From positions 1-35,485 of the forward strand of contig JAJQAJ010000034.1 in NCBI GenBank assembly GCA_021203865.1: a DNA stretch of 35,485 bases. Reading direction: 5' to 3'. The first letter of the stretch is position 1. Each line of letters starts with the position of its first letter. Positions 21,666 through 31,290 of this stretch are shown here, in pieces. The DNA is from Clostridia bacterium. Its GTDB lineage: Bacteria; Bacillota; Clostridia; Christensenellales; Borkfalkiaceae. Both the position numbers and the translations under genes were made by a program. Below the pieces are notes generated by a model. The model was not told the DNA's origin and ran no database searches. It saw only the letters and a program-made list of their open reading frames with translations.

Positions 21666-22133
21666 ATGGACAAAATAGAAAGTTTCAAAGTTGACCACGA
21701 AAGGCTGGAAAGCGGACTCTATGTTTCGAGAAAGGACTTTAAAGACGGCGTCGCTGTGACGACATTCGACATGAGGGTGACGCGTCCCAACCGCGAGCCC
21801 GTGATGGACATGCCGGCGATTCACACCATAGAACACCTCGGGGCTACTTTTCTTCGCAACTCAAAAATAGCAAAGGATGTAGTCTATTTCGGACCCATGG
21901 GCTGCCGCACGGGATTCTACATACTTCTTTTCGGTGACCTCGCGCCCGAAGACATCTTTTCCCTTGTCATGGAGATGACGGATTTTATAATCTCTTATGA
22001 GGGGGATATTCCGGGGGCAACGCCGGGAGAGTGCGGAAACTATTCCGAACAGAACCTTGACATGGCGAAGTTTTACATGAGAGAGTACAAAAAAAGACTG
22101 TGGGAAAATAAAAGCTTCACCTATCCCGAGTAA
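21666..22133 (+). CDS. luxS: S-ribosylhomocysteine lyase (AI-2 synthesis)
   Basis: The 155-residue enzyme cleaves S-ribosylhomocysteine to homocysteine and DPD, the precursor of autoinducer-2, in the activated methyl cycle. The metal ligands H53 and H57 lie in HTIEH and C123 in GECGNY, and the catalytic cysteine is C80 in GPMGCRTG. Length is normal for LuxS. GGGGAGGAG lies just upstream. There is no space for a promoter between the tRNA terminator and this gene, so readthrough from the tRNA-Thr transcript is likely. No pfs gene is adjacent. Confidence 0.96.
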   Translation: MDKIESFKVDHERLESGLYVSRKDFKDGVAVTTFDMRVTRPNREPVMDMPAIHTIEHLGATFLRNSKIAKDVVYFGPMGCRTGFYILLFGDLAPEDIFSLVMEMTDFIISYEGDIPGATPGECGNYSEQNLDMAKFYMREYKKRLWENKSFTYPE

Positions 22134-22139
22134 AAAACT

Positions 22140-22172
22140 GTGCCTCGTAAGAGCGCGGCACGTATTATTTTT
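22140..22172. terminator. terminator between convergent luxS and the DnaD-like gene
   Basis: GTGCC (22140-22144) and GGCAC (22157-22161) form a short stem followed by GTATTATTTTT on the plus strand. It overlaps the last codons of the minus-strand gene. Confidence 0.5.
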
Positions 22173-23859
22173 CACCGATGAGTTTTTTGAGACACTTGCA
22201 CGCGCGGCCTTTGGAGTCGTATCCCGTGTCGCCGCAGACGGGGCAGGAGTACTTGGGTTTGAGATCTTCTCTCACAAATCCCAGCCTTGAAAGTGCCTCG
22301 TCTTTTTTTTCGTCGTAAAATTTTATTTTCTCTTGGATAGGATCCGCGTTTTCGGGATTTCTGACCTCCGCGAAAGCGAGTTCAACTGAGAGCGCGGAAA
22401 GTTGTTTTTCCGCCGCGCTGAATTCTTCATCCTCCATGCAGATACGCAGGACATTTTCAGCTTTTTCTTCAGCGGTCTGGCGAAGCTCGGAGTAGTAAGA
22501 TTCTATCCTCGATTTGTCCCAGCCATGGCCGTTTTGTCCGCCCGCGCCTTCGGCTTCCTCTTTCGTGAAGACTCCGTCCGATTTCCAGCGCGACAAAATT
22601 TTGCTCATGTACGCGAGCGGTATGTTTTTGCTTTCGGACAATGAGGCGGCGTAAATTAGCATGTCGGAATCAAATCCCCAGTTTTTCCAGAGCGCGACTT
22701 TCTCCCTGTCACCTGAGGCGATGCCGCGCGTGAGACCGCATGCCGAAAGGATGGCGGACACTAGCTTGTCGTCCTCTATTTCGCGCGCGATGTGTTCTTC
22801 GACGGCGCCTTTGTCGACTATCCCTTCATTTATGAGTGTCTTTATGTATTCGTCCATGTCCTCAAAGCTTTTTTTGCCTTTGCGGAAACATCTGCTTGCT
22901 ATGAGTTTCAGAACGTCGCCAGTGTATCCCTCGTCAAACCAGCGGTTTACGAAAGTGTCGACGTAGGTGTCGGCGTTGCCCATGTACACCCCGAGGTTTC
23001 TCGCTATGTCTTTTGCCGCGGCGTATACCGAGCTTCTCGATTCATGAAACGCCCTTATTTCGACATCGTCGAATTTTTTGTTGTTGTAGAGCTCCCTAAG
23101 AATTTCGTCTATCTTTTCGACCGACTTCGTTTTGAAAAGCTTACCCGCAAGGGCTATGGATTTTTCCGGGAAGCCCATTTCCACCCATTTTCTGTAATAG
23201 TTGTCGTCGTCAAGCTCGGGTTTTCTTTTTATGCCCAGTTCGTTGAATATGCGTATCATCCCCGCGGAAACGTTGGAGAGGTACGCGAGCTTTTCCGACA
23301 CCTTCTCAGTCGTCACGCAACCTTCGTCAATGAAGGAGTGGATGACTTTTTTTATGTATGCGTGGCCTATGGCGTCACCTTTCAAAGTCACGCAGTACGC
23401 TATTATCTGCAAAAGCGCGTTGTCCTCTATGCCGTATTCGTCGAGAAAAAAAATGTAGTCGCGGTATTCGTTGGGAAGGACGTTGCGGCCCGAGATGATG
23501 GGCTGCACACTCTTGCAAAAATCCGCGTGTTCGTTTGTGCGCATGGTCTTGGGTTTTCCCATGAGGTTCGAGCAGTCTTCTATCTCGATTTCGAGCGGGG
23601 CCGTGGAAGTTATCGTGATAAGTTCATTCTGTTCGAGTTCACGAAAGACGGCCACCAGGTGTTCTTCCTCCATGTCAAGAGAGTGCGCGACGTCATACGC
23701 CGTGAAGGAGTCCATGGACGAAGCTCCCACGTAGAGCGCGTAGAGATAGACTCTGACGGCGTCTCCGGACAGGGTTTTCAGGTATTTCGAGATGAATTTG
23801 TTCTGCACGCTTGTGAACGCGCGCCCCTTCATGATGTCGCCCACTCTGACGAAAGCCAT
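22165..23859 (-). CDS. DnaD-repeat protein with a C-terminal helicase-loader-type zinc module
   Basis: The 564-residue product appears to have several DnaD/DnaB_2-like helical units: about 115-175 (DYIFFLDEYGIEDNALLQII), 190-250, 270-345 and 375-430 (WKNWGFDSDMLIYAA). DnaD-type proteins take part in primosome assembly at origins. The last 100 residues differ. They contain a long helical stretch, then FVREDLKPKYSCPVCGDTGY with C539, C542, C554 and C556, and end in KCLKKLIGEK. This matches the N-terminal zinc region of DnaC/DnaI helicase loaders, but no Walker A or AAA+ domain follows. The N-terminal 100 residues resemble the winged-helix part of DnaD. It is read from its own promoter at 23921-23949. 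Domain limits are judged by eye. Confidence 0.85.
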   Translation of the reverse strand: MAFVRVGDIMKGRAFTSVQNKFISKYLKTLSGDAVRVYLYALYVGASSMDSFTAYDVAHSLDMEEEHLVAVFRELEQNELITITSTAPLEIEIEDCSNLMGKPKTMRTNEHADFCKSVQPIISGRNVLPNEYRDYIFFLDEYGIEDNALLQIIAYCVTLKGDAIGHAYIKKVIHSFIDEGCVTTEKVSEKLAYLSNVSAGMIRIFNELGIKRKPELDDDNYYRKWVEMGFPEKSIALAGKLFKTKSVEKIDEILRELYNNKKFDDVEIRAFHESRSSVYAAAKDIARNLGVYMGNADTYVDTFVNRWFDEGYTGDVLKLIASRCFRKGKKSFEDMDEYIKTLINEGIVDKGAVEEHIAREIEDDKLVSAILSACGLTRGIASGDREKVALWKNWGFDSDMLIYAASLSESKNIPLAYMSKILSRWKSDGVFTKEEAEGAGGQNGHGWDKSRIESYYSELRQTAEEKAENVLRICMEDEEFSAAEKQLSALSVELAFAEVRNPENADPIQEKIKFYDEKKDEALSRLGFVREDLKPKYSCPVCGDTGYDSKGRACKCLKKLIGEK

Positions 23860-23949: not shown

Positions 23950-24005
23950 TTTTTTTTGGGGACGCCGGTACATGGCCGGAGCGCCCAGATACCCGGGAGT
24001 TGAAA

Positions 24006-25691
24006 ATGTCTGACATAATGACACCTTTAAACATTTGGGACGGCTTGGACCTTGGCCTTGAGCCCAAGTGCAGGGTTTTAGAAGAATTTAAAGAAGACGA
24101 CGTGACCTTGCGTCACCTTATGTTTCTCGGAAGAGACACGGGAGAGGGAAGGGTTGAAATACACGGAGTGATGGCGTATTCAGGTGACGTACCTTCCGAC
24201 AGGGGGGTGCTGTATCTTCCCGACTCCGGGGACGCCGTCAGCGTCGACATTTTGAAGCTTTTCGCGTCAAAGGGGTATTCCGTTCTCGCCGTCGATTACC
24301 GCGGTGAGGGCTTCAAGGGCGAATATTTCACGAGATACCCTCAGAATGTGTCCTACGCCAATGTCAAAAAGGCGGGCAGGAGAAAGAATTTCGTTGACGA
24401 AACCGCGGACAGGACCTCATGGTACGAATGGTGTGCCGCGGCGCTTTACGGAAAGTCGCTTTTAGACCTTATCACGGGCTCAGCGCACACCGCCGTGGTG
24501 GGACACAAGGACGGCGGGGAGATAGCCTGGAAAATAATAACGAAGGGAGAATTTTCCTGTGCCGTGATAATTTCCGCCGCGGGCTGGGATTACTGCGAGG
24601 GACACAGCAAGTTTGACAACACCGAGCCCGCGCTGTCGGACGAAAGGTACAGGTTCATCGCGGGAGTTGACTCCCAGTCTTTCGCTGGTTACGCCGGATG
24701 TCCCGTCATGATGATCTGCACGCTCCACGACGAGGGTTTCGATTACGACAGGGCCTATGACACGTTCATAAGAATAAACGGCGAGCACGCCTCTGAAAGC
24801 GTCATCCTCTATTCTCTTCCATGTTTCAATTTCGTCTCCAGAAGGGCCACGAAGAACATGTTCATGTATCTCGATAAATTTGTCTCGGAAAGGCAGATAT
24901 TCATTCCTCGTTCCTCGGACGTCGAAATAGTCATGGACGAAGAGAAAAACCTCGTCGCCAAAGTTTCTTTGGACCCGGACGGTCAAAGAGAGCACTGTGA
25001 CCTTTATTTCGCGGAAGATGAACTGGATTTTAGGAAGAGGTTCTGGAATCAGGCGAAATTTTTGAATTCGGATCCCGAGAGCGGCATAACCTCGTTTTCT
25101 CTCGACATAGCGAAAGGCACAAGCCAGATATTCGTTCTCGCGAGGTCAAAGTACACGAACGGCTTCACCGTGTGGTCCAAAATTTACACAAAAAAAACAT
25201 CGGGTGTTTTTAAAAATTCAGCGTCCAGGCAAAAAGTTCTCTTTTTCGCGGACGGAAAAGACGCGTCCTGCGACGGGTTTTCCATGATTGACGTGAGATG
25301 CGGCGCCGTCGGCGGCGTTTTCGCCACCGACAAATCCTCTGGACCCAAAATAGTTGAAAGGGACGGACTTTTCGGCATAACCTCGCCACGGGGCATCACC
25401 ACATGGAAGATTTCCTCCAAAAGATACGCGCCCGGCGAGGGCGACTCATTAAAACTCGATCTTTACACCGACGAGGAAGGCGAGGTGACGGTAGAACTTT
25501 ACGACAGTGACCTTCGCGTGTATTACAGCGCGAAGATAAAGGCGCTGGGGAAGGTGTGGCAGGATGAAATACTTGACACCCGGGATTTCAAAAGCGACGC
25601 CGGGATGCCGCTACCTTCGTTTCTTCTCGCCGACAGGCTTTCCGTCTTTTCAAGGACACCGTTTGCGGTGAATAACCTCATGTGGCTCTAA
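24006..25691 (+). CDS. alpha/beta-hydrolase-fold protein, probably catalytically altered
   Basis: The 561-residue product has an alpha/beta-hydrolase core of the acetylxylan-esterase/dipeptidyl-peptidase-like type in residues about 20-290. Evidence is VLAVDYRGEG with an oxyanion-region context, an ISAAGWD segment, and a nucleophile-elbow sequence VVGHKDGGEIAWK (from residue 164). The usual GxSxG serine is replaced by Lys at 168. Residues after about 300 form a second, beta-rich region that ends at NLMWL. No signal peptide is seen. It is the first gene of the plus-strand unit. GGGAG lies 6 nt before ATG 24006; a TTG two codons earlier is less likely. Function is unknown; a substrate-binding or regulatory pseudoenzyme is possible. 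Confidence 0.75.
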   Translation: MSDIMTPLNIWDGLDLGLEPKCRVLEEFKEDDVTLRHLMFLGRDTGEGRVEIHGVMAYSGDVPSDRGVLYLPDSGDAVSVDILKLFASKGYSVLAVDYRGEGFKGEYFTRYPQNVSYANVKKAGRRKNFVDETADRTSWYEWCAAALYGKSLLDLITGSAHTAVVGHKDGGEIAWKIITKGEFSCAVIISAAGWDYCEGHSKFDNTEPALSDERYRFIAGVDSQSFAGYAGCPVMMICTLHDEGFDYDRAYDTFIRINGEHASESVILYSLPCFNFVSRRATKNMFMYLDKFVSERQIFIPRSSDVEIVMDEEKNLVAKVSLDPDGQREHCDLYFAEDELDFRKRFWNQAKFLNSDPESGITSFSLDIAKGTSQIFVLARSKYTNGFTVWSKIYTKKTSGVFKNSASRQKVLFFADGKDASCDGFSMIDVRCGAVGGVFATDKSSGPKIVERDGLFGITSPRGITTWKISSKRYAPGEGDSLKLDLYTDEEGEVTVELYDSDLRVYYSAKIKALGKVWQDEILDTRDFKSDAGMPLPSFLLADRLSVFSRTPFAVNNLMWL

Positions 25692-29835: not shown

Positions 29836-31290
29836 ATGGCAGACGGTCTGACAATGCCCGCGAGCCTTGAAGCGGAACAGTCGCTTTTAGGCTGCATGAT
29901 AATAGATAACGACATCTGCGTCGACGTTTTGGAGTCTCTCGATGAGATAGATTTCTACCAGCAGTCCCATAAATACATTTTGGAGTGCATGAAGGAGATT
30001 TACGCCGAGAGAAAACCCGTCGACCTTGTCACGCTCTCCGACAAAATGGAGACCAAGCAGTATCTCGACAAGTGCGGCGGGATGGAGTATCTCACAGAGA
30101 TAGCCTCGTCAATTCCCACGGCGGCGAACTTTCGGCACTATTTCGACATCGTGAGGCGCGACAGCACCAACAGGGCGCTCATACGCGCGGCCGGTGAGAT
30201 ACAGAAAAACGCCATGACTGTTGACGACGCCGAAAGCAACATCGCCGCCGCGGAAAAACTCGTCTACGACATCTCAGAAACCAGAGACACCTCCACGATG
30301 AAGGACATCAGGACGAGCGGAGGTGTCGCTGAGGTCATGGACAAGTTTCAGCTCATTCACAACGACAAAAACGCGCTGAAAGGCGTCATGTCGGGATTTT
30401 CCGGTCTTGACAGACTGACGAACGGATTTCAGAAAGGAGACCTCATCGTCATCGCGGCGCGCCCAGGAATGGGCAAGACCTCGCTTTCCATGAACATAGT
30501 CGAGAATGCGATAACAGGTTCTCAGAAAGCGGTATGCGTGGTCTTTTCACTTGAAATGCCGCAGATTCAGATTCTGCAGCGTCTCGTGTGTTCCAACGCT
30601 CACGTCTCCATGAAAAAGGCGCTCGCGGGAGAGCTTCTGCCCGAGGACTGGAAAAATCTCGCGAAAGCCCAGGCGAGACTTGAGGAGTGTTCGCTTTTCA
30701 TTGACGATTCGTCGAGGATGACCCCGGCCGAGGTGCTTTCCAAATGCCGGAGGATAAAGGCGAGCGAAAAAAGACTTGACCTTGTCATGGTTGACTACAT
30801 CCAGCTCATGACCCCGGGCGCGAATTACCGCCTGACCGAAAATAGGTCCGAGGAAGTCGGAAGAATTACGAGAGAGCTCAAAATTATAGCGAAGGAGCTG
30901 GACGTGCCCATTCTGGCCCTGTCTCAGCTTCGCAGAATAGAAGGCAACAAGGAGCCGCAGCTCTCTGACCTTCGCGAATCGGGCGCTATTGAGCAGGACG
31001 CCGACATTGTCATGTTCATAAACCGGCCCGACGTCAATCTCTCGGCGAAAGAACTCGCGGACAGTGTGGCAAGCGGGGCAGTGGTGAAAGACGAGGCGCA
31101 GCTTAAAATAGCCAAGCACAGGAACGGCGAAACCGGGACGGTCAAGCTTCACTTCAACGGCGAATTCACGCAGTTCGTCTCCGCGGCGACCTCAACGGAG
31201 GAAGATTACGCGTCCTCCAAATTCAGTAGTGCCAAGTCAAAGTCCGATGCGGCGCCAAAAAATTTCGACGACGACAACACGCCGTTTTGA
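29836..31290 (+). CDS. dnaB: replicative DNA helicase
   Basis: The 484-residue hexameric helicase unwinds DNA at the fork. The N-terminal domain begins PASLEAEQSLLGCMI, and a linker precedes the RecA-like ATPase. Walker A ARPGMGKT is at 208-215 with K214, Walker B is VMVDYIQLM, and the C-terminal signatures SQLRR and LSDLRESGAIEQDADIV are intact. AAGGA lies 6 nt before the ATG. The C-terminal 25 residues are low-complexity. Its usual neighbours in Firmicutes (rplI) are not present. A loader for this helicase is not seen in the window. Confidence 0.96.
   Translation: MADGLTMPASLEAEQSLLGCMIIDNDICVDVLESLDEIDFYQQSHKYILECMKEIYAERKPVDLVTLSDKMETKQYLDKCGGMEYLTEIASSIPTAANFRHYFDIVRRDSTNRALIRAAGEIQKNAMTVDDAESNIAAAEKLVYDISETRDTSTMKDIRTSGGVAEVMDKFQLIHNDKNALKGVMSGFSGLDRLTNGFQKGDLIVIAARPGMGKTSLSMNIVENAITGSQKAVCVVFSLEMPQIQILQRLVCSNAHVSMKKALAGELLPEDWKNLAKAQARLEECSLFIDDSSRMTPAEVLSKCRRIKASEKRLDLVMVDYIQLMTPGANYRLTENRSEEVGRITRELKIIAKELDVPILALSQLRRIEGNKEPQLSDLRESGAIEQDADIVMFINRPDVNLSAKELADSVASGAVVKDEAQLKIAKHRNGETGTVKLHFNGEFTQFVSAATSTEEDYASSKFSSAKSKSDAAPKNFDDDNTPF

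Follow-up and report, generated by a model that had tools for sequence, protein, structure and literature searches.

Organization of the locus

The window (the whole stretch of 35,485 nucleotides analyzed here) carries, on its minus strand, an open reading frame of 564 aa with an ATG at position 23859 and a stop at position 22165. The encoded protein combines a DnaD part with a C-terminal tail that corresponds to the N-terminal helicase-binding domain (HBD) of DnaC-type helicase loaders. The relevant features are:

22165..23859, minus strand: DnaD-DnaC(HBD) fusion gene, 564 aa (open reading frame list, Pfam, NCBIfam, homologues in the genus)
22525..23859, minus strand: DnaD part, residues 1-445, an N-terminal region (1-100) followed by DnaB_2/DnaD repeats (PF07261, weak HTH matches)
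22168..22515, minus strand: tail (residues 449-564), the helicase-binding domain known from the N-terminus of DnaC, with three long helices and a zinc knuckle (NF005304, AlphaFold, dN/dS)
22192..22245, minus strand: zinc motif C539-x2-C542 ... C554-x-C556 (invariant in 62 aligned sequences and 8 intact DnaC proteins)
21666..22133, plus strand: luxS, convergent downstream neighbor (PF02664, E = 9e-54)
29836..31290, plus strand: replicative helicase DnaB, on which the loader presumably acts (PF03796, E = 3.6e-90; PF00772, E = 2.5e-30)

The DnaD part matches the DnaB_2 (DDBH2, DnaD repeat) family PF07261 with an E-value of 5.9e-20. Three stretches exceed the threshold, the best one spanning residues 380-437. 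The initial annotation had counted four DnaD-like units; three of them are backed by the profile, while the fourth is visible by eye only and stays below the threshold. As to the N-terminal winged-helix DDBH1 domain of such primosome proteins, Pfam gave weak HTH matches at residues 49-99 (E about 0.005-0.03). The Inhibitor_G39P domain (PF11417) is not among the Pfam matches of the protein, and no entry was returned when its full sequence was searched against the PDB. The surroundings are as first described: the four zinc cysteines occupy the positions assigned to them in the open reading frame, luxS converges on the fusion gene and ends 31 bases from its stop codon, and dnaB lies about 6 kb beyond its start. 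Upstream of the fusion gene (24000-25691) there is an open reading frame of 563 aa without a Pfam match, and similar frames adjoin dnaD in three other loci (L045, L046, and L199).

The tail is a DnaC helicase-binding domain without its ATPase

Residues 449-560 match positions 6-121 of the 330 positions of NF005304/PRK06835 (clostridial DnaC, annotated as ‘ATP-binding protein’) in NCBIfam with an E-value of 1.6e-12. The remaining ~200 positions of this profile, which form its AAA+ part, have no counterpart in the window protein. In pairwise BLASTP alignments, the tail is 31% (E = 2e-13) and 32% (E = 7e-20) identical to the N-terminus of intact DnaC proteins from sister genera. At the level of sequence, the likeness between the tail and DnaC is well beyond chance. 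The assignment of the last ~100 residues to the N-domain of DnaC/DnaI loaders, as originally made, is thereby borne out, and the profile match rules out an unrelated zinc ribbon, which had been named as the competing assignment for residues 460-564. The missing AAA+ ATPase is likewise real: nothing in the protein matches it, and the short distance to the end of luxS leaves no space for an ATPase remnant.

The four zinc cysteines and a DTG/DxG signature are conserved in 62 aligned tails, and the cysteines are also invariant in eight intact DnaC proteins of sister genera, whose N-terminus shows the helical region and zinc knuckle of the tail. An AlphaFold model of the tail (pLDDT 95) consists of three long helices plus the knuckle. 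A fold search with this model gave only generic helical-bundle matches and no DnaI N-domain. For a domain that is itself a small helical bundle, this result is uninformative rather than negative; the homology to DnaC thus rests on sequence. In the three closest pairs, codon analysis yielded a dN/dS of 0.04-0.05 for the tail and of 0.05-0.07 for the head. The tail value is as low as that of the head, which indicates that the tail is maintained by purifying selection.

The DnaC/DnaI AAA+ loaders (NF005304/PRK06835, e.g., CD3654 of C. difficile) share with the window protein the helicase-binding domain and its CxxC...CxC knuckle, as well as a gene position next to or inside dnaD. However, the window protein lacks the entire AAA+ ATPase domain, and its HBD follows DnaD at the C-terminal end, whereas that of the loaders precedes an ATPase. 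With DnaD and B. subtilis DnaB-type primosome proteins (PF07261, e.g., CD3653), the window protein has the layout of an N-terminal region followed by DnaB_2 repeats in common, but it adds the loader HBD and lacks the C-terminal peptide of its unfused relatives.

No separate loader detected in the genome or the genus

The genome that contains the window (1.68 Mb, 95% complete) was searched with PF01695 and NF005304 for a stand-alone AAA+ loader, a check already suggested in the initial annotation. The only matches were DnaA (C61), PhoH (C1), a CDC48-like ATPase (C4), ClpX (C44), and the fusion tail itself, and no intact loader was found. Nor did any intact loader exceed the NF005304 cut-off in 61 genomes of the genus Candidatus Coproplasma. 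This cut-off is strict and misses many intact loaders of the order, so E-values were used for comparison. Across the order and family, intact loaders score from 1e-76 to about 1e-28, and the best loader-profile values in the 61 Coproplasma genomes are at the level of DnaA, typically 1e-18 to 1e-21, with one exception at 1e-29 in a contaminated bin of 2.8 Mb. DciA (PF05258) could serve as a substitute loader, but it was detected in none of these 61 genomes, including the genome of the window, and in 7 of 14 control genomes. Nearly all genomes compared in this study are metagenome assemblies.

Two states within Candidatus Coproplasma

A profile-based scan of the genus gave 76 loci, which fall into two states. 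State A is the fusion of 565-612 aa (61 complete loci and one cut at a contig end). State B is a tail-less DnaD of ~470 aa, directly followed by an open reading frame of ~196 aa (13 loci). One further locus is cut at a contig end. None of the complete loci has both the tail and the G39P-like neighbor described below, and none has neither. All 61 complete state A loci show the same ATPase-less fusion, with no intact AAA+ domain downstream; together with the synteny, they rule out that the window holds a frameshifted or broken copy. Counted by genome, the complete fused form is present in 64 of 93 genomes of the genus and a cut or gapped form in two (G021 and G087). Another 16 have a strong match to the state B gene and no chromosomal fused tail, and this gene lies beside dnaD wherever it was inspected. 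Neither form was found in 11 genomes, which may be due to assembly gaps.

A maximum-likelihood tree was computed by quick search from the DnaD part. In it, the B rows occupy two places inside A: 12 of them form one clade (support 100), and L132 is the partner of an A row (support 95). Constraining the B rows to a single clade was rejected (AU p = 0.007). State B thus arose inside state A at least twice, i.e., the tail was replaced at least twice. The case of L132 may reflect not a second domestication but a transfer in which the 3′ end and its loader moved together; under either view, loss of the tail and gain of a loader go together.

The gene behind the tail-less dnaD (L035:2933-3517; L036:851-1453; L132:6433-7017; L144:6416-7012; and others) resembles phage helicase loaders. 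The L036 protein matches PF11417 (loader and inhibitor of phage G40P) over the cut-off (E = 8.3e-5) and the L035 protein below it, and the gene also matches phrog_2289, annotated as ‘helicase loader.’ An AlphaFold model of the L144 protein (pLDDT 84) has SPP1 G39P (1NO1) as its top match in the whole PDB (probability 1.00, 67/67 residues, rmsd 1.9, Z 9.1), followed by the loader lambda P with a Z of 8.8, but at an rmsd of 8.0 over 151 residues. Relatives in phage contigs are located directly behind a phage replisome-organizer gene, and prophage-like loci in genomes with state A hold further relatives among phage replication genes (L197:3616-4218 in G062 and L198:2875-3486 in G087). Given the G39P fold and these relatives in phages and prophages, the ~196-aa protein is probably a domesticated phage-type helicase loader, and the B genomes look to have recruited it where the tail formerly acted. 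The replacement gene has the G39P fold, whereas the window protein lacks a G39P domain and derives from DnaC rather than from G39P.

The N-terminal G39P domain of these proteins has itself been exchanged in L142 (1773-2414) and L146 (6422-7021) relative to L140 (3902-4492), with C-terminal halves that are up to 91% identical. In the pair L142 and L140, identity amounts to 91% in the C-terminal half and 39% in the N-terminal half. Phage attack on the loader is possibly the driving force behind this exchange.

Origin of the fusion in the family

We sampled 161 genomes from 17 genera of the family. Nine genera encode dnaD and an adjacent, intact DnaC of 301-328 aa with a zinc knuckle and a Walker A motif, and eight genera encode the fusion and no intact loader. 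A loader match of E <= 6e-28 is present in 28 of 31 genomes of the unfused genera, while none of the 130 genomes of the fused genera has any loader match below 2.8e-25. One genome assigned to an unfused genus (G392, a contaminated bin, 7%) shows the fused form, and two other genomes of unfused genera gave no clear call.

The fused genera do not group together. In the tree, the fused genera g26, g109, and g117 group with the unfused g111 (99/99), and the side with Coproplasma groups with the unfused g114 and g115 (100/99). A single clade for all fused rows was rejected (AU p = 0.0008). The fused state is thus polyphyletic, and this simplification has more than one origin. A related arrangement was found in a different family, f16 (L161-L165). 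In all five of its genomes with the gene, the DnaC-like portion of DnaD is confined to the helices, and the protein ends immediately ahead of the zinc motif; no intact loader was found in f16 genomes. This family groups with f24, away from the family of the window, which suggests a further independent origin.

A C-terminal DnaD peptide of the YxxEEL type (YTKEELDxLIDDIDDIEF) is present in 21 of 25 unfused DnaD proteins and in none of 71 fused ones. We infer that this peptide putatively docks the separate DnaC and would have become superfluous after the joining. Two genomes with long open frames (G059 and G319) were candidates for a complete DnaD-HBD-AAA+ intermediate, but both contain two separate, adjacent open reading frames.

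The initial annotation had offered two alternatives, a gene fusion with loss of the ATPase or a different way of helicase loading in this lineage, and both are right. Sister genera still hold the unfused pair of dnaD and intact dnaC next to a genus with 61 equal fusions, and the ATPase-less fusion arose more than once, with some congeners having swapped its tail for a phage-type loader. In the wider order, ten genomes that are at least 90% complete gave no match to an intact DnaC (G123, G125, G219, G127, G209, G289, G160, G195, G171, and G172), which could be gaps or further losses of the ATPase.

Proposed mode of helicase loading

AAA+ loaders are the textbook route for placing the replicative helicase on DNA, although the role of their ATPase is debated. 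We propose that the fusion is an ATPase-free chromosomal helicase loader, composed of DnaD and the DnaC HBD and replaceable by an ATPase-free phage loader, and we assign this reading a probability of about 80%. It builds directly on the identity of the domains, the lack of a detectable AAA+ loader or DciA, the conservation of the tail under purifying selection, and its repeated origin and repeated replacement. The loading activity, the scaffold role, and the release step of the fusion would follow the model below.

In Firmicutes, DnaD binds DNA and DnaA and self-assembles. The DnaD part of the fusion could use the same properties to act as a platform, on which several tails, side by side, would grip the DnaB hexamer. 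The gripping tails would then open or stabilize the hexamer and deliver it to single-stranded DNA. A loader ATPase would take no part in this process, and release would occur via primase binding and the ATPase of DnaB itself. Chromosome replication in this lineage probably starts without the ATP motor of a loader, which has long counted as a hallmark of this loader class. As to its origin, an adjacent dnaD-dnaC pair would have become one open reading frame, with the C-terminal peptide of DnaD lost and the AAA+ domain deleted. Later, in some congeners, the tail would have given way to a phage loader of the G39P/lambda P type without ATPase, encoded just behind dnaD.

Several known systems can be compared with this model. 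The isolated HBD of E. coli DnaC loads DnaB in vitro at about half the efficiency of the wild type and stimulates unwinding nearly as well as the full protein (PMC8213410), so ATPase-free loading by the tail is feasible. That HBD is an artificial truncation, whereas the HBD of the window protein looks like a natural state, tethered to DnaD. The phage loaders G39P and lambda P are alike in the proposed mode, loading without an ATPase, and lambda P neither binds nor hydrolyzes ATP (PMC6391071). DciA helicase operators (PF05258) are also chromosome-encoded and share the ATP-independent loading proposed here, but their sequence is unrelated to that of the window protein. On the helicase side, the LH-DH module is the part used by DnaC, lambda P, and DciA alike (PMC9912922). 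Counting against an ATPase-free model, the loader-helicase complex of C. difficile needs ATP, even though Walker A mutants of the loader still bind the helicase (PMC5204125).

The strongest competing explanation is that the tail only recruits DnaB and that another AAA+ protein, most likely DnaA or an unrecognized ATPase, opens the ring in trans. DnaA is the best AAA+ match in nearly every such genome, the AAA+ domains of DnaC and DnaA belong to one clade, and no ATPase domain is more closely related to the lost one than that of DnaA. The same role in trans could fall to a distant AAA+ protein that NF005304 and PF01695 do not capture. However, DnaA is present in the unfused relatives as well, the E. 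coli HBD loads DnaB alone, and the best structural matches of the replacement protein are G39P and lambda P, the latter without any use of ATP. We therefore regard an ATPase acting in trans as unlikely. It is highly improbable that the tail is a functionless vestige and that DnaA and DnaD alone load the helicase: loss of the ATPase could be plain decay, and f16 has lost the zinc knuckle too, but the zinc cysteines are invariant in 62 sequences at a dN/dS of about 0.04, and tail loss always coincides with the gain of a loader-like gene. An assembly or annotation artefact, with the AAA+ part frameshifted off or lost at contig ends, has hardly any probability left. Many metagenome loci do end near the fusion gene, but in the window only 31 bases separate its stop codon from luxS, the same end is seen in 61 complete genes, many of which lie deep in long contigs, and whole-genome searches detect no loader ATPase.

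If the ATPase-free loader is real, a DnaD-tethered HBD would be a third cellular loading strategy besides AAA+ DnaC/DnaI and DciA. Beyond the window, we find it fairly likely that several lineages of gut Clostridia independently gave up the AAA+ motor and rely on a DnaD-tethered HBD to load their chromosomal replicative helicase. This module would then be traded time and again with phage loaders that lack an ATPase, a possible reason being that phages attack or hijack the loader of the host. According to a published survey, dnaC/dnaI replaced dciA and, where present, are shared by all species of an entire order, class, or phylum, except for two recent cases, Enterobacteriales and Alteromonadales (PMC5109545). 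The fused lineage departs from this pattern: its genera form a natural set in which the gripping domain was kept, the ATPase was dropped more than once, DciA was not regained, and the domain can be swapped for a phage protein. Sister genera with and without the ATPase allow a direct test of what the loader ATPase contributes, and the exchange with prophage genes documents the turnover of host and phage loaders in real genomes. Our literature search, which left most subscription journals and preprints outside its scope, found no paper describing a DnaD-DnaC fusion.

Tail-like modules in mobile elements

Tails of the DnaC type without an AAA+ domain are also found on winged-helix proteins (L066:1325-2401, L059:1698-2864, L067:2009-3145, and L058:1257-2357), with a degenerate zinc tail in L058 and L067. 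In prophage-like loci of Coproplasma, the mobile element encodes a DnaB helicase, and the gene of the tailed winged-helix protein comes immediately after the helicase gene. ATPase-less tails in such loci fit a portable helicase-gripping module. A further family of ~221-229-aa proteins ends in a DnaC-type helix-zinc region (L060:1697-2368, L064:1757-2428, L065:1570-2256, L068:1906-2595, and L075:1535-2200); its L060 member, the only one tested, has no Pfam match. Scanning viral contigs with the tail profile gave no confirmed relative, while tblastn revealed distant tails in fecal phage records.
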